Positions 5,469-59,980 of a stretch of 64,000 bases of DNA are shown piece after piece. This DNA comes from Echinarachnius parma. Its lineage: Eukaryota; Echinodermata; Echinoidea; Clypeasteroida; Echinarachniidae. Numbering within the stretch: position 1 is the first letter of the stretch; every line of letters starts with the position of its first letter. Made by a program: the position numbers and the translations under genes. Location of the stretch: NCBI GenBank assembly GCA_037951105.1, contig JBAMJV010001407.1:117660-181659 (forward strand), read 5' to 3'. Below the pieces are notes generated by a model. That model searched no databases. It worked only from the letters and a program-made list of their open reading frames with translations, and was not told the origin of the DNA.

Positions 5469-5639
5469 ATTATCTTATGTTCTTTCGGAAAATGAAGTTC
5501 AAAATTGAAAATTCTAGGAATTGTTTTGTTGACGTTACTATTGACGTCACACTTCACCACTCTATTTAAATAATGGAGAAAGGAAAGTTAATCACACGAG
5601 TTACCAGAGGACTGGCCCCTTCTCTAACTTTTTGCTAAA

Positions 5640-5710
5640 AGTAGACGTGTGGCCTAGGGCAAATGAATCGGGAGATAGACACCGCCTTGTGTGGCAAAAT
5701 TGCCACGGGA
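5640..5710 (+). repeat. Single copy of the 56-bp unit expanded in gene B
   Basis: About one unit reads TAGACGTGTGGCCTAGGGCA followed by a divergent AATGA-TCGG-GATAGAC and CCGCCTTGTGTGGCAAAA. It lies upstream of exon 5 in the same relative place as the roughly 20-unit array at 51229-52340 in gene B. This looks like the ancestral single-copy state. Confidence 0.85.
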
Positions 5711-5827
5711 AGGAATAACCATCGTGACTTAAATGCGCACATCTGATTGGTTCAAATTTGCACATTTCAGTTCCTGACTTTCGATTAATTGCAAATTTAC
5801 TATTACACTTTGTTTTCCACGCGATAG

Positions 5828-6084
5828 GTATTGGCACGGTTCCGGTCGGGCGAGTGGAAACGGGAATAATCAAAGCTGGCGTGATCGTTACCTTCGCCCC
5901 TGTCGGGCTCACCACCGAAGTGAAGTCGGTCGAGATGCACCACACACAGGTTGATGAGGCCAGGCCCGGGGACAACGTCGGCTTCAACGTCAAGAACGTG
6001 TCTGTGAAGGAGATCAAACGAGGGATGGTTGCCGGCGATTCAAAGAATGACCCGCCCAAAGGGGCCGAAAACTTCCTCGCCCAG
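5828..6084 (+). CDS. EEF1A: eEF1A copy A, coding exon 5
   Basis: The exon encodes most of domain II and the start of domain III, from [12 protein letters not shown] through [19 protein letters not shown] to [16 protein letters not shown]. Domain II helps bind the aminoacyl end of tRNA and the nucleotide exchange factor. The acceptor AG is at 5826-5827 and the donor is GTAGGT at 6085. The length (257 bp) equals gene B's exon 5. The exon is GC-rich at third positions against AT-rich flanks, as expected of a highly expressed gene. The 152-residue reverse-strand open frame over the same bases is a shadow. Downstream intron bases to about 6440 are homologous to gene B's intron 5. Confidence 0.95.
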
Positions 6085-6765
6085 GTAGGTACGCCGCAGG
6101 GGCAGGAACAAAAATGGTCTACGTTCTTTAAAAGGGATAGTAGTTTTGGTCCAACAGAATCAAAGTGTTGCGTGATTAATAAAATGTGTATTGGTGTAAT
6201 CTGATACTGTCCAAATAGTAATGTGTGAAAATCAATGGGATTTTATTTGGCAGAGAAACACACTACAAAAATAGGGACTCGCCTTTCTGATGCCCGAAAT
6301 CTTTTTTGATGGCTTAGTCAAAAACACGAGATGGGTTTTCCCCGGAAAGTAAGAGGAATTTGCACGAATGCAACCTGACCCCCCCCCCCCCCCCCCCCCC
6401 ACACCCGCCTCCTTCGCCCTATGGCTATACACCACACGGGCTAGGAATAAGTTCCATTCTCGTTCTTTTTTAGATTATGGCATAGCTGCCAAGTGTAAAA
6501 AATTAGATTCTTTTTGGTGCGAACCAGGGTTAAAGTGTCTCCTTGACTTTGTCATAACCAAGCAAAATCTGAAGCTTTCACACTTGCCCACGGGTGCCGG
6601 AGCCGTTGGTGCAGTATTTAGATATTAGAGCGCGTCTCGCATGGGCCAATCAATTGTTCTCGTTTGGTGTTTGCGTTCATTATTATCCCCGTTTGATTAT
6701 TTATCTCGTTAATATCGATATTGTAAATTCAATTTTGTTTTCCCTTCCCGATTTCGCCCTGCTAG
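6085..6765 (+). other. Intron 5 of gene A with a C run
   Basis: Bases 6090-6160 match 52866-52930, 6172-6440 match 54030-54370, and 6450-6765 match 55330-55629 of gene B's intron. A run of about 22 C occupies 6379-6400 where gene B has none. Gene B's intron is longer because of inserts between these homologous blocks. No separate gene is supported. Confidence 0.7.
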
Positions 6766-7131
6766 GTTATCATCATGAATCATCCCGGAGAAATCCACGC
6801 CGGCTACGCACCCGTGCTCGACTGCCATACCGCCCACATCGCCTGCAAGTTCAACGAGCTCCGCCAGAAGATCGACCGTCGATCGGGCAAGGTGCTGGAG
6901 GAAAACCCGAAGATGGTGAAGATGGGTGACGCGGCCATGATCCAACTTATTCCGTCCAAGCCCATGTGCGTGGAGCCTTTCGCCCAATACGCGCCACTCG
7001 GCCGCTTCGCCGTTCGTGATATGAAGCAGACTGTCGCCGTCGGGATCATCAAAGAAGTTGAAAAGAAAGAACCCGGCAGCAGCAGCAAGGTGACCAAGTC
7101 TGCCCAAAAGGCCACCAAGGGAAAGAAGTAG
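6766..7131 (+). CDS. EEF1A: eEF1A copy A, terminal coding exon 6
   Basis: The exon encodes 121 residues of domain III, starting [20 protein letters not shown] and including [30 protein letters not shown] and [15 protein letters not shown]. It ends with a lysine-rich tail [17 protein letters not shown] before the TAG at 7129-7131. The acceptor is TGCTAG at 6760-6765 and the exon starts in phase 0. The tail matches the usual eEF1A C terminus ([11 protein letters not shown]), so this copy looks complete at its 3' end. An internal ATG at 6775 is only the Met in IIMNH and is not a start. Domain III contacts tRNA and the exchange factor. Confidence 0.96.
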
Positions 7132-17293: not shown

Positions 17294-17789
17294 CGTTCTA
17301 GGTCCTCCTAATACGGGACTAAAAATTAATATTGTTTGTGCACGCTAATTGTGCTTAAAACTATACATATGATACGGTACTTACCACCGATTCACTCTCC
17401 AATATGTGATCCAACTATCGGGTGGATTAAAATTATGATTTTTCCCTCCATTCCGCTAAATATCAGTGATTTATGCGCCTCCTCGACTTCTCTCCGTGTG
17501 TTAGCGCGACTGATATAGTGCCGTTCGCCGTTCGCATCGGCGGCCATCGCGATCATCAACATCTGTTCGGAGTCGCGCTAACACACGGAGAGAAGTCGAG
17601 CAGGCGCATAAATCACTGATTTTTAGCGGAATGGGGGAAAAAAATCATAATTTTAATCCACCCGATGGTTGGATCACATATTGGAGAATGAATGGGTGGT
17701 AAGTACTGTATCATATGTATAATTTTAAGCACAATTAGCGTGCACAAACAATATTCATTTTCAGTCCCATTTTAGGAGGACCTAGAACG
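17294..17789. mobile_element. 496-bp foldback element, CGTTCTAGGTCC ends
   Basis: The arms 17294-17510 and 17575-17789 are near-perfect inverted copies (CGTTCTAGGTCCTCCTAATA at the left; its inverse at the right), with about 65 bases of loop. A short palindrome AGCGCGAAGCGCT sits at its left edge. A diverged relative occupies about 38545-38885. Confidence 0.8.
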
Positions 17790-22285: not shown

Positions 22286-22668
22286 TTACTGACGCTCACA
22301 AAGATTATCAGCTGAACATCTCGGTTGGAGCTAACAGTTATGGAGAGCCGTTTTAGTTTCTTTGTAAACAATATTTTGAGAATGCATAACAATCGGTTTT
22401 ATTACTGAGTAATTATCAAGCAGCCTCGGTATATAATAGATGCATTTTTTTTAAAAGTGTCATTATTTTACTTGTTTTTTCTTTTAAAGGTTTCATTCCA
22501 AGGATAGAAATGGCTTTCCATTATTGTAAGGTCCACCTTTAAAGAGTCGAGTTCAACTTTGTGAAACACCCTCCGGGTCACTTTGCAAAGAATGGGTCGC
22601 CATATTGAACGGCGCTATTACATTCTTGCTGAATAACTCATTCTGTATATTTCCTTTCTAATATCCAG

Positions 22669-28994: not shown

Positions 28995-31340
28995 ACCTAG
29001 CGGGGGTTCAACCCCCCCTTTCCCCCCCCCCCCCCCCGCCCCTTGACCAAAAAATGGATCTTTTGGGGGGTTTGAACCCCCCTTTTTAATTTTAGCCATT
29101 CTCGAGACTACTTTTAAACGGTCTCGACTGTCTAAAACCTGGTCTCGACTGTCTAAAACTAAAACTACCCCCCCCCACCCCACTAAGGGGGGTTTTCAAC
29201 TTTGAAGGTACTTGGCCTCGGCTTCGAAAAAAAATGTACGGACACCCCCCCACCCCCACCACCCCCGGAGAGGGGTTTTCAACTTTGAATGTAGCCTACT
29301 TGGCCTCGGCTTCGAAACAAAATTTACGGACACCCCCCCCCCTCCCCGCCCTCCCTGAGAGGGGTTTTCAACTTTGAAGGTACTTGGTCTCGGTCTCAAC
29401 ATTTTTTAATGGACACCCCCCCCCCCCCAACCACCCCCCGGAGAGGGGTTTTCAACTTTGAAGGTATTTGGCCTCGGCTTCGAAACAAAATTTACGGACA
29501 CCCCCCCCGCCCTCCCTGAGAGGGGTTTTCAACTTTGAAGGTACTTGACCTCAACTTCGAAATTTGTTAACGGACACCCCCCCCCCCCACCCCACTAAGG
29601 TGGGGTTTTCAACTTTGAAGGTACTTGGCCTCGGCTTCGATCGAAACAAAATTTACGGACACCCCCCCCCCCCCCCTCCCCGCCCTCCCTGAGAGGGGTT
29701 TTCAACTTTGAAGGTACTTGGTCTCGGTCTCAACATTTTTTAATGGACAACCCCCCCCCCCACCCAACCACCCCCCGGAGAGGGGTTTTCAACTTTGAAG
29801 GTATTTGGCCTCGGCTTCGAAACAAAATTTACGGACACCCCCCCGCCCTCCCTGAGAGGGGTTTTCAACTTTGAAGGTACTTGACCTCAACTTCGAAATT
29901 TGTTAACGGACACCCCCCCCCCCCCCCCCCACCCCACTAAGGTGGGGTTTTCAACTTTGAAGGTACTTGGCCTCGGCTTCGATCGAAACAAAATTTACGG
30001 ACACCCCCACCCTCCATGAGAGTGGTTTTCAACTTTGAAGGTACTTGGTCTCGGTCTCGAATTTTTTTAACAGACACCCCCCCCCCCCCACCACCCCCGG
30101 GAGAGGGGTTTTCAACTTCGAAGATACTTGGCCTCGGCTTCTAAAACAATTTTACGGACACCCCCCCCCCCCCCCCCACCCGCCCTCCCTAAGAGGGGTT
30201 TTCAACTTTGAATGTACTTGGCCTCAGCTTGGAAATTGTTTAATGGAACTTGGTCTCCGCTTGGAAATTTTTACAAAATAACCCCCCCCCCCCTTTAAAA
30301 AATCCTGGGTTCACCACTGATTATAGCGGGGGTTCAACCCCCCCCCTTTCCCCTCCCCCCCCGCCCCTTGACCAAAAAATGGATCTTTTGGGGGGTTTGA
30401 ACCCCCCCTTTTTAATTTTAGCCGTTCTCGAGACTTTTAAACGGTCTCGACTGTCTAAAACCTGGTCTCGACTGTCTAAAACTAAAACTACCCCCCCCCC
30501 CCCCACCCCACTAAGGGGGGTTTTCAACTTTGAAGGTACTTGGCCTCGGCTTCGAAAAAAAATGTACGGACACCCCCCCCACCCCCACCACCCCCGGAGA
30601 GGGGTTTTCAACTTTGAATGTAGCCTACTTGGCCTCGGCTTCGAAACAAAATTTACGGACACCCCCCCCCCCCCCCCGCCCTCCCTGAGAGGGGTTTTCA
30701 ACTTTGAAGGTACTTGGTCTCGGTCTCAACATTTTTTAATGGACACCCCCCCCCCCCCCCCCCCCAACCACCCCCCGGAGAGGGGTTTTCAACTTTGAAG
30801 GTATTTGGCCTCGGCTTCGAAACAAAATTTACGGACACCCCCCCCCGCCCTCCCTGAGAGGGGTTTTCAACTTTGAAGGTACTTGACCTCAACTTCGAAA
30901 TTTGTTAACGGACACCCCCCCCCCCCCACCCCACTAAGGTGGGGTTTTCAACTTTGAAGGTACTTGGCCTCGGCTTCGATCGAAACAAAATTTACGGACA
31001 CCCCCACCCTCCATGAGAGGGGTTTTCAACTTTGAAGGTACTTGGTCTCGGTCTCGAATTTTTTTAACAGACACCCCCCCCCCCCCCCCCCTCCACCACC
31101 CCCGGGAGAGGGGTTTTCAACTTCGAAGATACTTGGCCTCGGCTTCTAAAACAATTTTACGGACACCCCCCCCCCCCCCCCCCCCCCCCCCACCCCACCC
31201 GCCCTCCCTAAGAGGGGTTTTCAACTTTGAATGTACTTGGCCTCAGCTTGGAAATTGTTTAATGGAACTTGGTCTCCGCTTGGAAATTTTTACAAAATAA
31301 CCCCCCCCCCTTTAAAAAATCCTGGGTTCACCACTGATTA
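28995..31340 (+). repeat. Higher-order array of poly-C / TTTTCAACTTTGAAGG units
   Basis: Units of about 70-100 bases read GAGAGGGGTTTTCAACTTTG, AAGGTACTTGGCCTCGGCTT, CGAAACAAAATTTACGGACA and then 8-25 C. About 20 units are present. A higher-order block of about 1 kb starting GCGGGGGTTCAACCCCCC and ending AATCCTGGGTTCACCACTGA is repeated (28995-30322 and 30327-31340; the first contains extra units). Related units are at 11930-12245, 53160-53270 and 59415-59980. The Pro/Gly-rich open frames are not genes. Confidence 0.9.
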
Positions 31341-31493
31341 TACATGTACCTTGCATCTGTTCATATAATAGTGGTCACTTTAGTGAAAAGAACATTGTGT
31401 TACAAAATAAATAAAAATGAGTGGCTGCCTGGCACACAATATTTTCTAATACATATGTACAACATGTACAACATAACTTGTATTTCTACAGAA

Positions 31494-31706
31494 CGCCAGC
31501 GGGCCACGCCAGCGGGCCACGCCAGCGGGCCACGCCAGCGGGCCACGCCAGCGGGCCACGCCAGCGGGCCACGCCAGCGGGCCACGCCAGCGGGCCACGC
31601 CAGCGGGCCACGCCAGCGGGCCACGCCAGCGGGCCACGCCAGCGGGCCACGCCAGCGGGCCACGCCAGCGGGCCACGCCAGCGGGCCACGCCAGCGGGCC
31701 ACGCCA
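31494..31706 (+). repeat. 13-bp minisatellite CGCCAGCGGGCCA
   Basis: About 16 perfect or near-perfect head-to-tail copies of CGCCAGCGGGCCA. Because 13 is not a multiple of 3 and the unit has no stop in any frame, long open frames with 13-residue periods appear on both strands. They are not evidence for protein. Perfect homogeneity suggests recent expansion. Confidence 0.97.
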
Positions 31707-46110: not shown

Positions 46111-46609
46111 ATACAAAGGTAAACGCGTACAGTGTGAACGTTGACAGGTATTCGGCTTTGAAGCTATATGCGTGTTAATTGCAATCCCAAGTTGACTAGT
46201 ATGCTCTCCTGAGAGTTGAGATGGTGCGCAAGATAATCGTCCGGGGGTGTTTCACAAAGATCTTAAGTTGAACTTCACTCTAAGTTGGACCGAACTATTA
46301 TGGAAAACCGTTTATAGCCTTGGAATACAATATATTAAAACAGCAATAAACAAGAATGTTAATTTTCCTATAAATGTTGCTTCAAGAACATAAACTGTCC
46401 TTGATAATAGATAATATTACTTACTTTTTGCATTTTGTCCGCTTAATTGTTTTAAAATGGTATTTGATATTTAGTAATTATTGTTGTTGTTGATGCTTAT
46501 GGATCCGATATGACTTCTTTATTCGCGCCTTTTGTTATTTAATTGAATTAGAAATACATGTACCCAGGTAGCAAGCCAACGTTGGACCAACGTCGGAAAC
46601 TTGCAAACT

Positions 46610-48025
46610 CGTTGGAACTCGTTGGACGTTGGACAATCTCGTTGGATCAACGTTGGACCAACATCGGTAACTCGCAGTGAAAAAGAAGTTGGACAATCTC
46701 GTTGGACCAACGTTGGATCAACATCGGTAACTCGCAATGAAATGTACGTTGGACAATCTCGTTGGACCAACGTTGGATCAACATCGTTAACTCGCAGTGA
46801 AATAGACGTTGGACAATTTCGTTGGACTAACGTTGGATCAACATCGGTAACTCGCAGTGAAAAAGACGTTGGACAATCTCGTTGGACCAACGTTGGACCA
46901 ACATCGGTAACTCGCAGTGAAAAAGACGTTGGACAATCTTGTTGGACCAACATTGGACCAACATCGGTAACTTGCAGTGAAATGGACGTTGGACAATCTT
47001 GTTGGACCAACGTTGGATCAACATCGGTAACTCGCAGTGAAAAAGACGTTGGACAATCTCGTTGGACCAACGTTGGACCAACATCGGTAACTCGCAGTGA
47101 AATGGACGTTGGACAATCTCGTTGGACCAACATTGGACCAACATCGGTAACTCGCAGTGAAATGGACGTTGGACAATCTTGTTGGACCAACGTTGGACCA
47201 ACATCGGTAACTCGCAGTGAAAAAGACGTCGGACAATCTCGTTGGACCAACGTTGGACCAACATCGGTAACTCGCAGTGAAATGGACGTTGGACAATCTT
47301 GTTGGACCAACATCGGTAACTCGCAGTGAAAAAGACGTCGGACAATCTTGTTGGACCAACGTTGGACCAACATCGGTAACTCGCAGTGAAATGGACGTTG
47401 GACAATCTCGTTGGACCAACGTTGCACCAACATCGGTAACTTGCAGTGAAATAGTCGTTGGACAATCTCGTTGGACCAACGTTGGATCAACATCGGTAAC
47501 TCGCAGTGAAAAAGACGTTGGACAATCTCGTTGGACCAACGTTGGACCAACATCAGTAACTCGCAGTGAAAAAGACGTTGGACAATCTCGTTAGCCCAAC
47601 GTTGGACCAACATCGGTAATTCGCAGTGAAATGGACGTTGTACAATCTTGTTGGACCAACGTTGGACCAACATCGGTAACTCGCAGTGAAGAAGACGTTG
47701 GACAATCTCGTTGGACCAACGTTGGACCAACATCGGTAACTCGCAGTGAAATGGACGTTGGACAATCTCGTTGGACCAACGGTGGACCAATTACATCGGT
47801 AACTCGCAGTGAAATTGACGTTGGACAATCTCGTTGGAGCAACGCTGGACCAACATCGGTAACTCGCAGTGAAAAAGACGTTGGACAATCTTGTTGGACC
47901 AACGTTGGATCAACATCGGTACCTCGCAGTGAAAAAGACGTTGGACAATCTCGTTGGACCAACGTTGGATCAACATCGGTAATTCGTAGTGAAAAAGACG
48001 TTGGACAATCTCGTTAGACCAACAG
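46610..48025. repeat. 60-bp minisatellite, about 23 units
   Basis: The unit is GTTGGACAATCTCGTTGGAC, CAACGTTGGACCAACATCGG, TAACTCGCAGTGAAAAAGAC, with A/T variation in the last six bases and one unit shortened near 47300. Sixty bases is 20 codons and most frames lack stops, so open frames up to 423 residues appear on both strands. They are by-products. The unit contains the self-complementary GTTGGACCAACGTTGGACCAAC core (first 20 bases diagnostic). Confidence 0.95.
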
Positions 48026-49053
48026 TAATGAGTGGACTCAAGTAGAATTACAATCATAAATAGAAGTGCGCCATCCCCGGTGAATTACCATATAGGATCG
48101 ATATGTATATTATCGGGTGTCAAGAGACCATGTATGAGTTGGGCCATCGATCTACAAGCAGTTAATAAAGTAAGCTTTCAACTATACTCGTGTGCCTACT
48201 TGTATTATATTACAACATGGTGTCTGAAGTGAAAGTGACTGTATGTCTGATTCGATTCGCCATGACCTGTGTTGTAGAAATGCTAATTTGAATCCATTTT
48301 GGGAGGCGAGCTTCACGGTTGATGTGTGACCGGATATACCATCCAGAAAACGCTTTATTGAGAACTGTACTGTTCGTTATCAACGGTGCATAGCTAGTAG
48401 GAAGAAAGAGCTCCAGAAGAGGCAGAAGCGATACTATGACCAGGGTGCCAAGTCGCTGCCGGTGTTGAAGTCTGGAGAACGTGTGTACTACCAAGTGGGA
48501 AAAGAATGGAAACCTGGCGTAGTGACAACTCAAGATTCAACGCCCCGCTCGTACCACATCCAGAGTGAGAAAGGTGGGCGGTATCGCCGGAACAGACATC
48601 ATCTAAAGAAGCGTCGCGCACCTGAAGGTAACATCCATGTTCCAGTAAACGAGGAAACGGAGGTCCCAGAAGCGTGCTGGAGTGAGGTGAAGCCGCCCTC
48701 GCAAGAACGTGACAGGCGCTACCCATACTTCGACGTCTACTCTCAGACCCCCGGATAGATTAGATTTGTGATAGAGATGAATACCATTTAGGGCAGAATA
48801 ATCCCTTGGTATCATCTAGGCGTTGGGTAGTCCACCCTGGCACTAGCACGTTAAACCATTTTGCATAAGGTAAATGTCGGTCTTACATAGGGGATGACAA
48901 CCGTACGAAAGGGGCAGAATAATCCCCTGGTTCCATCTTCTGGGTGTCGGGTAGTCTACCCTGACACTCAAGTTTTATAATTTACCAGTATTTATTATTG
49001 TTATGCCAGAGTTACACATGGCATTTCGCCTACTTGTATTATATTACAACACC
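48026..49053 (+). mobile_element. Broken Ty3/gypsy-type LTR retrotransposon remnant
   Basis: A short 5' LTR-like segment (about 48026-48217) contains AATAAAG and is followed by a primer-binding-site-like TGGTGTCTGAAGTG. The end of the LTR (CTACTTGTATTATATTACAA) recurs at 49030-49051, marking the 3' LTR end. Between is a short piece of the C-terminal, chromatin-side end of a gypsy pol polyprotein (about 48400-48758). CCAAC occurs at both outer junctions but is also part of the host array. The element is heavily deleted, looks old, and is inserted in the 60-bp array. Confidence 0.75.
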
Positions 49054-50352
49054 AACGATGGATCAACATCGGTAACTCAAAGTGAAATGGAGGTTGGACA
49101 ATCTCGTTAGAGCAACGTTGGATCGACATCGGTAACCCACAGTGAAACGTTCGTTAATCCAACGAGAATCCAACATTTCACATCTGTTGTTCACTACATG
49201 TAGCTGTTATGTTAGAAAAGGTAATTTGTTTACTCGTAGCACAGGTGGTCAAAACCCCCTTGCATAATAAAAGGATTTAAAATTAGCTGCTGAAAGCAGG
49301 ATGTATGCCATCGTTGGATCAACGTTGGTTCAACGTTGGATGAACGTTGGTTATTATTCATGAATATTCATGAGTGGTTATCATTGACTGCAAAGAGCAT
49401 TAATAATCATGTTATTTGATTGTTCAGAATGAATCCAATGTTATTATTTACTCATTATTTGAAATATATGTAAGTTATTTATCTACAAAAACATTCTAAA
49501 GGTTTGTTTCCATGATGTATTTGTGTAAATTCTTAAAACTTTATCCAAACATTCAACTTTATCGAAATACCAACCATCAAACAAATATTAACACAGAAGC
49601 TAGGTTATATAAAGCTGAGTGGATGATGTAGATGTAGTGAGTGTAGGAATAGGAATAGGACTATATGGATAGGAATAGGTCTAGGAATAGGGTTAGGGTT
49701 AGTCTTAGGTAAAGGGAAAGCTAGGATAGGATGTTCTAGATATCACCAATAGGCGTGTCATATGAATATTAATTTAATTTTTTTAGTACGGTGAGACGTT
49801 GGTCCAATGTTGGACCAACGTTGGATCAACGTTGGTCCAATGTTGGACCAACGTTGGACCAACGTTGGATCAACGTTGGACCAACGTTGGAGAAATGTTG
49901 GTGAATTACGCTGGACCAACGTTGGATGCTTGTTGGAGACATGTTGGATGCTTGTTGGAGACATGTTGGATGCTTGTTGGATGAGTGTTGGAGACATGTT
50001 GGATGCTTGTTGGAAATATGGTGGATGCTTGTTGGACACATGTTGCTTTGACGTTGGATCAACGTTTGCGTACGCCCAACCAACGCTGCTCCAACGTTGG
50101 CGAATACAAAATACCAACCTTGGATCAACGTTGGAAAAGCGTTGGTCCAACGTTGACAAATGACAACTTTCCAACGATGGACCAACGTTGATCCAACGTT
50201 GGTATTTTGTTTTCGCCAACGTTGGAGCAGCGTTGTTTGGGCGTACGCAAGCAACGTTGGTCCAACGTTGCCGGACAACGTTGGACCAACGTTGCCGAAA
50301 AAATTGGACAACGTTGGTCCAACGTTGGACCAACGTTGGCTTGCTACCTGGG

Positions 50353-51228
50353 TATTTACTACTATTATCATATCATCATATTATGATGATTGAATTAATT
50401 TTATTCAGTAAATTGTTACATAATGTATTATATTGTATTACGTTTAAGCCCTGCATTGACAGTTATGCGTCATGTCCTGGGCTATATGTAAGAGTCTGTT
50501 CACCTTTACCCTTGTTCCTTTGTTGAATTGACAATAAAGTGATATCAAATCAATCATTTGAATTAACATTTTATGCCTTAAAAAAACAACTCTTTTTACA
50601 ATACTTTTTAAATCCAACTTGGAGTGAAGTTCAGCTTAAGATCTTTGTGAAATACCCAGGGATTCAACTGTACCTGATGGCCTATATAAGTAATGCGCCT
50701 TTGCATTTGTAGTAACATATGAATTATAGGTTCAAAGGAAATGAACGCTTGTACAATCGTTATATACTTTGCGTAACTCCACATGAGAGGCGGGAGTCCT
50801 AATGCGAGAAGCAAACGTATAAGTAAAATATAACTATGTTATTGGAAAAAAAAAAGATTTCGCGATATGCATAGCGGTGACATTAAATTATATTTTTGTT
50901 TATTATTGTAAAGAAATAGAGAATTTAAATTGGCAAGAATAGTCACCATTGGCTGATTGCCATTAAACTAAAACAACAACAACATAAATTATGGTCTCTC
51001 GATAATAATACTACTAATATATAAATTGTAATGACAATACAAATGACAATGACGACCATTATGTTAATGCTAATGATTATTATAATATCTAAATAATATA
51101 TACATACATACATATGTATTATGCCGAGCCCGGCGCTCGGTATTTATAGAATGGAGAAGGTAAAGTTAATCACACGAGTTACCAGAGGATTTTCCCCCTC
51201 CTGTAACTTTTGCAAAAAAAAAGGAAAG
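50353..51228. other. AT-rich intron 4 stretch
   Basis: No gene. Bases 51118-51180 (ATGCCGAGCCCGGCGCTCGG, then GGAGAAGG-TAAAGTTAATCA) correspond to 1583-1610 and 5573-5600 of gene A, where the nested elements at 1624-5500 have separated the two parts. Confidence 0.6.
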
Positions 51229-52340
51229 GTGAGGCCTAGGGCAAATGATCGGAGATAGACGCCGCCTTGTGTGGCAAAATAGGCGTGTGGCCTAGGGCAA
51301 ATGATCGGAGATAGACGCCGCCTTGTGTGGTAAAATAGACGTGTGGCCTAGGGCAAATGATCGGAGATAGACGCCGCCTTGTGTGGCAAAATAGACGTGT
51401 GGCCTAGGGCAAATGATCGGAGATAGACGCCGCCTTGTGTGGCAAAATAGACGTGTGGCCTAGGGCAAATGATCGGAGAAAGACGCCGCCTTGTGTGGCA
51501 AAATAGACGTGTGGCCTAGGGCAAATGATCGGAGATAGACGCCGCCTTGTGTGGCAAAATAGACGTGTGGCCTAGGGCAAATGATCGGAGATAGACGCCG
51601 CCCTGTGTGGCAAAATAGACGTGTGGCCTAGGGCAAATGATCGGAGATAGACGCCGCCTTGTGTGGCAAAATAGACGTGTGGCCTAGGGCAAATGATCGG
51701 AGATAGACGCCGCCTTGTGTGGCAAAATAGACGTGTGGCCTAGGGCAAATGATCGGAGAAAGACGCCGCCTTGTGTGGCAAAATAGACGTGTGGCCTAGG
51801 GCAAATGATCGGAGATAGACGCCGCCTTGTGTGGCAAAATGGACGTGTGGCCTAGGGCAAATGATCGGAGATAGACGCCGCCTTGTGTGGCAAAATAGAC
51901 GTGTGGCCTAGGGCAAATGATCGGAGATAGACGCCGCCTTGTGTGGCAAAATAGACGTGTGCCCTGGGGCAAATGATCGGAGATAGACGCCGACTTGTGT
52001 GGCAAAATAGACGTGTGGCCTAGGGCAAATGATCGGAGATAGACGCCGCCTTGTGTGGCAAAATAGACGTTTGGCTATAGGGCAAATGATCGGAGATAGA
52101 CGCCGCCTTGTGTGGCAAAATAGACGTGTGGCCTAGCGCAAATGATCGGAGATAGACGCCGCCTTGTGTAGCAAAATAGACGTTTGGCCTAGGGCAAATG
52201 ATCGGAGATAGACGCCGCCTTGTGTGGCAAAATAGACGTGTGGCCTAGGGCAAATGATCGGAGATACACGCCGCCTTGTGTGGCAAAATAGACGTGTGGC
52301 CTAGGGCAAATGATCGGAGATAGACGCCGCCTTATGTGGC
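51229..52340 (+). repeat. 56-bp minisatellite, about 20 units
   Basis: The unit is TAGACGTGTGGCCTAGGGCA, AATGATCGGAGATAGACGCC, GCCTTGTGTGGCAAAA, head to tail with very few substitutions. The paralogous intron has one unit at about 5640-5700. The array ends about 270 bp before exon 5. High homogeneity points to recent expansion. Confidence 0.97.
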
Positions 52341-52606
52341 ACAATTGGCACGAGAAGGAATTTTGACTTTAAAGAACCCATATGACTTTTAAAATGCGCA
52401 CATCTGATTGTTTCAACTTGCACATTTCAGTTCCTCGCTTGCGATGAATTCCAACTTTACTATTGATTATACAACCCTTTCTGCAAGGCGGAGGGGGGTG
52501 GGGGGGGGGGGGCTGATGTAGCAAATGTTACAAACGAAAACGCCTAATCTAATCAGCGACTGTAAAATTCCCCTAAAACTACACATTTTTGTTTTCTACG
52601 CAATAG

Positions 52607-52863
52607 GTATTGGCACGGTTCCGGTCGGGCGAGTGCAAACGGGAATAATCAAACCTGGCGTGGTCGTTACCTTTGCCCCTGTCGGGCTCTCCACCGAAGT
52701 GAAGTCGGTCCAGATGCACCACGAGGCGATGGAAGTGGCCTTGCCCGGGGACAACGTCGGCTTCAACGTCAATAACGTGTCTGTGAAGGAGATCAAACGA
52801 GGAATGGTTGCCGGCGATTCAAAGAATGACCCGCCCAAAGAGGCCATAAACTTCCTCGCCCAG
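52607..52863 (+). CDS. EEF1A: eEF1A gene B, coding exon 5
   Basis: Domain II and the start of domain [78 protein letters not shown]. Acceptor AATAG at 52602-52606; donor GTAAGT at 52864; 257 bp, frame open throughout. GRVQTG replaces the usual GRVETG and VNNVSV replaces VKNVSV; MHHEA matches other eEF1As better than gene A's MHHTQ. Synonymous sites are mostly shared with gene A, suggesting a fairly recent duplication or gene conversion. Confidence 0.95.
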
Positions 52864-55629
52864 GTAAGTACGCCGCAGGCGCAGGAACAAAAGTGGTCTA
52901 CGTTCTTTAAAAGGATAGTAGTTTTGGTCCAACAGAATGTTAGTATTCAAAGTAGCCTTTAGCCAAGGATATGGCTTGGAGATTATCTATGCGATCGCGA
53001 GCTAGCTAGCTGTGAGAGAGCTATAAACTATAACTGGCTCCCATTTATAGCCTTTAGTCAGTCGATTCCACCGATCTATACCACTGGATATAGCAACAGC
53101 GCCCTCATCATGAAGCCAGCGACAGTGTCAACAATATCCAAAAGTGCACCTAAGAAATAGAACATCTTCGAAGCCGAGGCTGAGTACCTTAACAAATTTC
53201 AAGACTGAGACCAGGATTATTCCAGGATTATTCGCAATTTGACTCAAAGGGGGGGGGGGGGGGGGGTCAGTTTCTTTATATATATTTTGGTGTTCCCTCG
53301 CATATTTCCCTAAGTAGATTTCTATTCTTTGGGTTTATGTCAGGTTTATAATAGGTTCTGACCATACGAAATTGTTTTTTTTTTCTGTTTGGATCGTGAC
53401 CAAATGCGAATCAGATGATCGCTTACATTATTATAGCTAAATAGTAGACCCTAAAATCCGAAAAAAGAGAAATGGTAAAAGTAGCCCCGAAAGTTGGAAA
53501 AGTATATAGCCCCGAAAACTACCATAAAATTAGAAAGGGAGCCCCCGAAATAAAAATATTATTTTTCCTCCTGATTAATTGTAATAATTTTGTCCCAATA
53601 CCCCCCCCCCCCCCCCCCCCCCCCCCACACACACACACAAAAGGGGGTAGGCCTATATACAAAGATAACAAAATAACAAGCAAACTGGCACTGGGCATAG
53701 AATATTGCATTAATGATACCATATTTGTCTGTAAAATTACTCAGAATGAGCCTGATATTCAAAGTGATATTCATGCAATCGTATTTAAAATGTCATCCTT
53801 GATAATTACAAATTAAATTGACAACTATGTTTTGAGTATGAACAGATTTTCTACGAACGAAACAATGTAAATAAAAGAAATCAAAACTGTTCACGTTCAC
53901 GACTGACGATAGGCACTCGCGCTGCACGCTCGAGCTCGGCATTTCGCGGTTAGTATCCTGCCAGACAGCACGATGCCTATCGGATAGGCTATATTCAAAG
54001 GGATCTAGTAACTTTGTTGACATGTGCACAAAGTATTGCGTGATTAATAAAATGTTTTTTTGGTGTCATCTGATATGTCCAAAAAGTAATGTGTGAAAAT
54101 GTTATTTGGCAGAGAAACACAATAAAAAATAGGGACTTTTTGATCCCCGAAATATTTTTTTGATGGCTTAGTCCAAAACACGAGATGGTTTTGCCCGGAA
54201 AACAAGAGGACTTTGCCCGAATGAAACGAGTTTGCCAGTATATGACCCGAGTTTGCCCGAATATGACATGGTTTTGAGCGAAAATGAGACTGTTTTCCCG
54301 GAAAGTAAGAGAACTTTGCCAGAATGTAACATGACCCCCGCGTCCTTCGCCTATGGGAATAAACCACACGGGCTTGTATTAAAGGGGCCTTGCAAATCAA
54401 ATGCATGTTGACTTCTGTATATATGTATTAGTGTACACATTCATTATTTGTAAATTGTTTGACCTAAATAGGTTTCGTTTATTTTTAAACATTGAATCAT
54501 ATATTTTTCTTCATGTTGCTAAGCCCCACCAAAAACCTCCAGAGTGAATTCTATTATTGACTGGTTGTGACATCATCTGTCAATCTTTGGTCAGCTACCA
54601 TGAGATTAACAAAATATGAAAGTACAAACCAGGGGCGGATCTAGCTTTTTGGTAAGGGGGGGGGGGGGTTTGACCAATGACGATGCGGAGCATCGTCCAC
54701 GAGCCGCGTATCGGCGAGGCGATTTTTTGGCTATTTTGAACCCCCGGAAGTGATGTCTTCTTTTCTAAGGGGGGGTTTGACCAAATGACGATGCAGAGCA
54801 TCGTCCACGAGCCGCGAAGCGGCGATTTTTTTTGCTATTTGGAACCCCCGTAAGTGATGCTTTCCACATCACATTTTCACTTGGCAGCTCAAAGGGGGGG
54901 GGGGGGGGGGTTAAACCCATGATGGCGTTTTTCTATGCACATCACATTTTCCCTTGGCAGCCCAAGGGGGGGGGGGGGGGGGTTTAAACCCATGATGGCG
55001 TTTTTTTATGCACATCACATTTTCACTTGGCAGCCCATACAATAGCTTAGACAGTACTTTTCTTCTGACATAGCAACTGCTATCGAAATTGAAGGTGTGT
55101 GAGTTGGTAATGTATTCAACCGTGTGATGCTATTGTGATTAGGCACTCAGCTTGGGTGAATGTCACTTCTTTGTAATTGAGTAGTGAATGACTGATGTCA
55201 CAACCAGTCAACAATACAATTTTAAATAACAATAACAAATGTTTGGGTCAAATGGTTTACAAATAGTTGATGTGTACACTAATACAGATGAACAGAACAT
55301 AACAGGCGTTTGGTTTGCCCGGCCACTTTAAGTTCCATTCTTGGTCTATTTTAGATTTTGACATAGCTGCTAAGTGTTGTGCGAACCAGGGTCAAAGTGT
55401 CTCCTTGTCTTTGTAAGAACCAAGCAAAATACGAAGCTTTCACACATGCCCAAGGGTGCCGAGGCCGTTGGGGGCAGTATTTAGATATAAGAGCGCGTAT
55501 CGCATGGGCTAATCAATTGTTTCTCGTTTGGTGTTTGCGTTCATTGTTATCCCCGTTTGATTATTTATCTCGTTTTTATGGATATTGTAAATTCAATTTT
55601 GTTTTCCCTTCCCGATTTCGCCCTGCTAG
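52864..55629. other. Intron 5 of gene B with inserts
   Basis: Homologous blocks to gene A's intron 5 are 52866-52930, 54030-54370 and 55330-55629. Inserted between them are a partial CACTGGATATAGCA MITE (53083-53160), a GGTCTCGG/poly-G piece (53160-53270), C and G runs (53600-53626; 54655-54668), and a direct repeat at 54650-55040 (TTGACCAATGACGATGCGGA and CATGATGGCGTTTTT, each twice). Motifs like GAGTTTGCCCGAATATGAC repeat at 54215-54330. No gene. Confidence 0.6.
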
Positions 55630-55938
55630 GTTATTATCCTGAACCATCCCGGAGAAATCCATGCCGGCTACACACCCGTGCTCGACTGCCATACCGCCCA
55701 CATCGCCTGCAAGTTCAGCGAGCTCCGCCAGAAGATCGACCGTCGAACGGGCAAGGTGATAGAGGAAAACCCGAAAAACGCGAAGACAGGTGACGCGACC
55801 ATGATCCTCCTTATTCCGTCCAAGCCCATGTGCGTGGAGGCTTTCTCCGAATACCAGCCACTCGGTCGCTTCGCCGTCCGTGATTTGAGGCAGACTGTCG
55901 CCGTCGGGGTCATCAAAGGAGTTGAAAAGAAAGAATAG
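55630..55938 (+). CDS. EEF1A: eEF1A gene B, terminal exon, tail lost
   Basis: Domain III for 102 residues: [77 protein letters not shown]. The acceptor is TGCTAG at 55624-55629. The reading frame stops at TAG 55936-55938, about 19 residues earlier than gene A, so the lysine-rich tail (KVTKSAQK...) is missing. The TAG is formed at the edge of the first AGTCCT hairpin repeat, so the array that replaced the tail also supplied the stop. Total protein would be about 447 residues against 462 usual. The tail is variable and not catalytic, so loss need not abolish function. Confidence 0.93.
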
Positions 55939-59414: not shown

Positions 59415-59980
59415 CATAGGCGGGGGGGGGGGGGGGGGGTTGGGGGGTTCAAACCCCCCCCCCCCCTTTGACCAAAAAATGACTGTTTTGGGGGGTTTGA
59501 ACCCCCCCCTCTTCAATTTTAACTGGTCTCGAGACCAAATTTTAGCGGTCTCGACCGTCATTTTCGATGGTCTCGGCCTCGAAAAGTGCAAAAAACCGTG
59601 GTCTCGGCCTCGAAAATGTCGAACATTTTTGGTTTTTTTTCGTTTAGAAAATTTTCGACGACTACCACCCCCCCCCCCCCCCCCCCCCGCTTAAAGGATT
59701 CTCAATCACTGGGTCTTGGTCTCGGTCTTGAAAATTGTGGACCGGAACTGGTCTCGGTCTCGAAAATGTCGAAAATTCGAGGTCTCGGCTGCGAAAAAAA
59801 TTTTACGACTACCACCCCCCCCCCCCCCCCCCCCACCCCCGCTTACAGGATTCTCAACCACTGGGTCTTGGTCTTGGTCTTGAAAATTTTGGACCGGATC
59901 TGGTCTCATTATCGAAAATGTTGAAGGTACTTGGTCTCGGCTTAGACAATTTTCTACGACTACCCCCCCCCCCCCCCCCC
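59415..59980 (+). repeat. GGTCTCGG / poly-C repeat cluster
   Basis: Starts with G and C runs around TTTGACCAAAAAATGACTGT. It then has three units of GGTCTTGGTCTCGGTCTTGA, AAATTGTGGACCGG and TCTACGACTACC plus C runs, about 150 bases each. Related to 11930-12140 and 28995-31340. Confidence 0.85.

Follow-up and report, generated by a model that had tools for sequence, protein, structure and literature searches.

The 64,000-nucleotide stretch of Echinarachnius parma DNA that we analysed (the window) carries elongation-factor-1-alpha domains, a retrotransposon reverse transcriptase, a tRNA-Gly and, at 46563-50352, a repetitive element whose two edges carry CCCAGGTAGCAAGCCAACGT in inverted orientation relative to each other. 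This sequence matches the window twice at up to three mismatches, both times exactly (46563-46582 on the forward strand, 50333-50352 on the reverse), and has no match in 100 shuffles, which bears out the perfect terminal inverted repeats that a sequence-only reading of this DNA had proposed. The left terminus (46563-46597, forward strand) starts with CCCAGGTAGCAAG and is preceded by TA, the right terminus (50318-50352, reverse strand) is followed by TA, and with the flanking TA included the inverted match spans 46561-46597 and 50318-50354, with 35 of 37 bp (95%) in agreement. The outermost 13 bases of both ends match perfectly and lie outside the repeat word described below, and beyond about 37 bp the two ends can be aligned only with gaps, to about 100 bases. 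Between the termini lie, from left to right, 60-bp units of which the 24th is split by an LTR relic, a 25th unit, a middle part and a right end of 557 bp. The element is known here as one copy: no second copy of its ends occurs within the window, and no transposase was found among Pfam matches with E up to 5 when four frames of the element were scanned.

Adjoining the left end is a 60-bp tandem array (TRF: 46625-48023, period 60, 23.5 copies, 90% matches), whose first whole unit is preceded by a lead of 72 bases counted from the TA at 46561. Divided into units, the array runs along the forward strand from 46633 to 48023 and comprises 23 whole units, one of 49 bp and one of 63 bp, and unit 24 up to its 19th base. 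Past the relic, the remainder at 49052-49157 on the same strand supplies the rest of unit 24 (7 of 45 positions off consensus) and unit 25 (12 of 60), after which a short inverted partial unit lies at about 49152-49174; the earlier estimate of about 23 units thus stands, with a split 24th and a 25th to be added. Across the 23 whole units, 61 of 1,369 compared sites depart from the consensus (4.5%), as against 19 of 105 (18%) in the pieces beyond the relic, a divergence of the last units that could also be the usual effect of an array edge. Units 8, 11 and 19 are identical to each other, and unit 12, the one of 49 bp, lacks exactly one 11-mer of the inner palindrome. The array bears no trace of recent tandem growth, because adjacent units resemble each other no more closely than units far apart do (at lag 1, 68% of permutations were at least as close). 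Higher-order unit structure was considered and rejected, as the best lag, 11, has a permutation fraction of 0.013 that is not significant over the 11 lags.

Changes within the array fall on its palindromic core and its spacer at similar rates (18 of 496 against 43 of 873 over all columns; 11 of 473 against 23 of 827, Fisher p 0.72, with columns of widely shared variants excluded). As the spacer does not clearly vary more than the core, the 60-bp array itself shows no sign of site use. The description of the array as a self-complementary minisatellite applies to the 22-bp core word that every unit contains but is not borne out for the array as a whole, which folds no better than its composition predicts (z +0.21 for one unit and -0.86 for two; z -1.61 for ten units, where 6 of 100 shuffles fold as well). 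Two further readings of the array were set aside: CpG decay (12 transitions in 10 CpG columns, 27 in the 50 others) is too weak to use, and the Pfam names returned for a frame that spans the array are regarded as artefacts of its repeats, DUF3912 scoring 26.1 bits against a cut-off of 23.1 on the array-spanning frame with no single stretch passing alone.

The relic that splits unit 24 occupies 48024-49051 on the forward strand and has CCAAC at both sides. Its first 194 positions (48024-48217) are LTR-like, and their last 24 bases (48194-48217) recur at 49028-49051; the left copy is therefore read as an LTR and the right LTR as almost wholly missing. An open frame at 48330-48758 resembles, we assume, the C-terminus of a gypsy integrase. 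The nested, broken retroelement that had been reported here is thus supported by the CCAAC on either side and the 24-base repeat, but its gypsy label has no Pfam or PDB match of the open frame behind it.

The right end (49796-50352) consists mostly of 11-bp words and folds at z = -23.1. Its array of 11-bp period (49798-50074, forward strand) holds 25 consecutive 11-mers in two registers, ten from 49798 and fifteen after a 2-base shift, with the final one running into the beginning of a hairpin arm. What is kept in these words is GTTGG, which agrees with the majority at 121 of 125 sites, as compared with 86 of 150 for the remaining six bases. When the 14 distinct 11-mers are joined in a minimum spanning tree, GTTGG receives 4 of 28 changes (binomial p 0.0005), or 1 of 16 when five edge units are left out (p 0.0009), although these p values overstate the constraint and serve as a guide only, because the 11-mers share descent and were put in register by means of GTTGG. 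Only the right end has the pattern that retained half-sites would be expected to leave, the sites themselves being putative. The hairpin (50066-50250) has arms of 80 nt at 50066-50145 and 50171-50250 that are 91% complementary around a 25-nt loop, and folds at z = -19.8 when taken alone. The earlier designation of the whole as a foldback element therefore suits the right end but not the body, where the array folds no better than shuffles, and it fails when the ends are compared, since their inverted match extends for only about 37 bp before gaps begin. Alignment also reveals a look-alike of the left terminus at 50242-50268 (forward strand) that faces the right terminus; it is suggestive, and given its presence the last 110 or so bases of the element may resemble a small foldback of their own.

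A single word ties these parts together. Its 12-base form, GTTGGNCCAACG, has 56 matches in the window with both strands counted (shuffle mean 0.02), and all 56 lie within the element, which confirms the proposal of one core common to terminus, array and hairpin. Counted together, GTTGG and CCAAC occur 83 times per kb in the left lead, 68 in the array and 88 in the right end, as compared with 1.9 in the LTR relic and 1.9 and 0.6 in the two flanks; the array pieces beyond the relic (18.5) and the middle part at 49161-49795 (9.4) are both word-poor. Repeat and sequence comparison places a lone cluster of 11-bp words within this middle part, at 49308-49351 on the forward strand. A patch of TAGGAA / TTAGGG-like, telomere-like repeats lies at 49644-49720, also in the middle of the element.

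The array unit also resembles the element end. The block CCAACGTTGGACCAACGTCGGAAACTTGC of the left lead shares 26 of 29 bases with the 60-bp unit, and a longer alignment of lead and unit consensus scores 52, where the maximum among 1,000 shuffles of the lead is 26 and none reaches 52; this likeness stems partly from the shared palindromic word itself. The alignment identifies 46576-46627 (forward strand) as a relative of the 60-bp unit that lies beside the left end and has diverged and become shorter. That the array grew out of the terminal sequence, as had been suggested, is supported as far as the likeness goes; the direction, from end to array, we infer because an element needs its end in order to move.

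The flanks carry the remains of what is probably another element. A 45-bp repeat at 46245-46289 (forward strand) finds an inverted match of 42/45 at 50613-50657 (reverse strand), and from this inverted repeat it follows that the element probably landed inside an older TIR element, of which these would be the left and right TIRs; as read from the sequence, this is the simplest account, and it lends indirect support to the view that the element is an insertion. The remaining halves of the presumed host add up to about 620 bp, and no target duplication of the host was recognised. When the flanks were joined and compared with the 64-kb window, no insertion-free copy was found, the matches being limited to the 45-bp ends and to weaker relatives at 22495-22576 (74%) and 22296-22377 (71%) in opposite orientations to each other. 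The pairs 46245-46289 / 50613-50657 and 22296-22576, with ends GGGTGTTTCACAAAG, are a probable family of TIR elements. Elsewhere in the window, a large inverted repeat at 17294-17789 has arms of 150 bp (141/150) and is flanked by TAG and GTA.

TA adjoins both edges of the element, for which the chance is 0.5% (6.9% for any identical dinucleotide). The interpretation of these flanks as a target duplication is not proven: because TA is palindromic, a single copy does not distinguish a TA duplication from the end of a TIR, and the inverted repeat may simply end with these two bases. Among flank pairs of 3 to 12 bp none is identical, the best being 4/6, with 1/7, 3/8, 2/9 and 3/10 at the greater lengths.

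We consider it most probable, at roughly 0.6, that 46563-50352 is a non-autonomous DNA transposon of the cut-and-paste kind that relies on a transposase supplied in trans from another locus, with the GTTGG words as putative accessory transposase sites. The transposase would read the tip CCCAGGTAGCAAG together with GTTGG half-sites that recur about every helical turn (11 bp), and the right end would be an older, constrained array of such half-sites. The 60-bp array would have arisen later, when unequal exchange or slippage multiplied a segment that had been copied from the left end, and the loss of exactly one 11-mer in one unit would be an expected slippage step. The element would have jumped into the older TIR element, and the LTR element would later have landed in unit 24, cutting off the last units. 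A more specific version of this account, in which the GTTGG half-sites of the right end are selected at one helical turn while their CCAAC partner is free to decay, neutral amplification of that word has given the 60-bp array at the left, and the target duplication is TA or absent, is one that we hold to be doubtful, the sites being putative here as well. If it were true, one copy would display both the selected and the runaway phases of transposon ends turning into satellite DNA.

The structure may instead be a composite, in which a short TIR element (a MITE) suffered the expansion of an unrelated minisatellite inside it and the insertion of a separate small foldback in its right part. The low density of the shared word in the middle part (9.4 per kb at 49161-49795), the difference in period between left (60) and right (11), and the end-like sequence facing the terminus within the right end, as a nested mini-element would have, all speak for such a composite; we nevertheless find it unlikely, given that ends, array and hairpin share a word whose 12-base form is absent elsewhere in the window, that the 60-bp unit resembles the element end, and that no distinct terminus was noticed at 49796 in the course of the comparisons described above. 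Palindromic repeats are prone to inverted duplication, and a patch of palindromic satellite could have gained the look of inverted ends in this way by local rearrangement, never having been mobile as a unit. The single copy and the low information in the TA flanks, at the chance levels given above, agree with this idea, which is made rather improbable by the perfect match of the first 13 bases, outside the repeat word and outermost on both sides, and by flanks that resemble the two halves of another inverted-repeat element. Finally, the end-derived arrays could serve as putative decoys that titrate transposase, leaving this copy immobile and a restraint on its own family. Although the element's 56 matches (both strands) to the putative double site are what might prompt such a proposal, the site is not conserved within the 60-bp array, and we regard a decoy function as very improbable.

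The cut-and-paste transposon that we favour can be set against known systems. Matching terminal inverted repeats, the general mark of non-autonomous TIR DNA transposons, are present. IS630/Tc1/mariner elements have a TA target duplication and a DDE/D transposase, and the TA found here points to them only if it is a duplication and not the end of the TIR. The marks of several other groups are absent: PIF/Harbinger has a 3-bp TWA duplication, where the flanks here read GTA and TAT; ISL2EU has an AT duplication within AATT and ends usually starting with GG, where this element has TA flanks and ends that start with CC; and piggyBac has a TTAA duplication and CC[C/T]T ends, where the flanks here are TGTA and TATT and the ends CCCA. 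Helitron ends have the form TC...CTRR, and a Helitron was rejected, since the present element has matched TIRs and lacks such ends. The P superfamily makes target duplications of 7-8 bp, which are absent here (1/7, 3/8). Drosophila FB and the sea-urchin foldbacks have ends of short tandem repeats that fold back, and duplications of 8-9 bp; such duplications are absent here, and neither of the present ends is a long inverted copy of the other. More generally, in place of the long inverted repetitive termini on both sides that characterise FB and Tetris, we find an inverted match of about 37 bp with a period of 60 at the left and 11 at the right, and their 8-10-bp target duplication has no counterpart (3/8, 2/9, 3/10).

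Published descriptions exist for tandem repeats in transposon ends, for 60-bp arrays on one side only, for minisatellites next to a single TIR and for satellites derived from ends (PMC4079207, PMC2213677, PMC3688188, PMC6446971). Tetris (and DAIBAM) of the Drosophila virilis group, described in a paper that also cites the sea-urchin foldback case (PMC4079207), lacks conserved reading frames, contains internal tandem repeats of about 220 bp and has an autonomous partner that its authors had not found; its repeat and the outer end domain have a 37-bp stretch in common (about 80%), and the authors suggest that the repeat originated in that domain. Tetris, the closest published case, is thus like the present element in having internal tandem repeats that resemble the end and no conserved reading frames, and differs from it in that its TIRs reach 1,735 bp at either side, its target duplications measure 8-10 bp and its unit is 220 bp long as against 60. 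In the description of MtPH-A6-4, a PIF/Harbinger element of Medicago truncatula (PMC2213677), 60-bp tandem repeats are present in 2 to 35 copies, are confined in some elements to a single subterminal region and have a smaller repeat inside each unit, all as here; in contrast, MtPH-A6-4 has a 3-bp target duplication, other termini, a plant host and a known superfamily, and its inner repeat is a triplicated 12-base motif and not a palindromic 11-mer. Rehavkus (PMC6446971) shares with the present element a minisatellite before the 3' TIR, TIRs in the range of 26-400 bp and animal hosts, but makes a 9-bp target duplication and encodes a transposase, which in its defining description is MULE-like with a PHD finger; here, a minisatellite does adjoin one TIR and the 9-bp duplication is absent (2/9). 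Galileo, of the P superfamily, has internally repetitive ends, as here, and extra binding sites for the THAP domain of its transposase within tandem repeats, a tested precedent for sites in such repeats (PMC3688188); compared by description, it differs in TIRs of 0.5-1.2 kb and a known transposase. Because Tetris, Galileo, MtPH-A6-4 and Rehavkus show its features separately, the present element, set apart from these published systems by their descriptions, appears to form a new family within a kind that is already described. The pairing of 60-bp and 11-bp arrays of one word in one element was not found in the literature searched, nor was any description of this sequence, Repbase and most subscription papers lying outside the scope of that search. 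With an end, a diverged unit, an array and a phased 11-bp array of one word side by side, the order of events and the transposase-binding role would become testable, in a further lineage.

Searches for relatives covered several other collections. Four patterns gave no match in viral contigs and two gave none in prokaryote genome contigs, and blastn with the whole element (low-complexity filter on) matched nothing among phages and plasmids. A looser pattern with 16 fixed bases did return five viral contigs, which we take as chance matches because none of the five loci carries GTTGGNCCAAC.

The window holds other features besides the element. Partial elongation-factor-1-alpha-like copies lie at 5728-7131 and 52522-52962, with domains confirmed in both, and a third such copy at 55329-55935 is recognised only by 88% DNA likeness to 6448-7071. 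Beside the fragment at 52522-52962 is a 56-bp tandem array (51229-52345, 19.9 copies, 96% matches), and one related 56-bp unit at 5638-5700 adjoins the copy at 5728-7131; this single related unit suggests that the array grew after the elongation-factor-1-alpha locus was duplicated. In addition, 16.5 perfect copies of the 13-bp unit ACGCCAGCGGGCC occupy 31493-31706, and arrays with poly-C tracts at 29169-31181 and 59648-59980, some 28 kb apart, are related to each other over short stretches.
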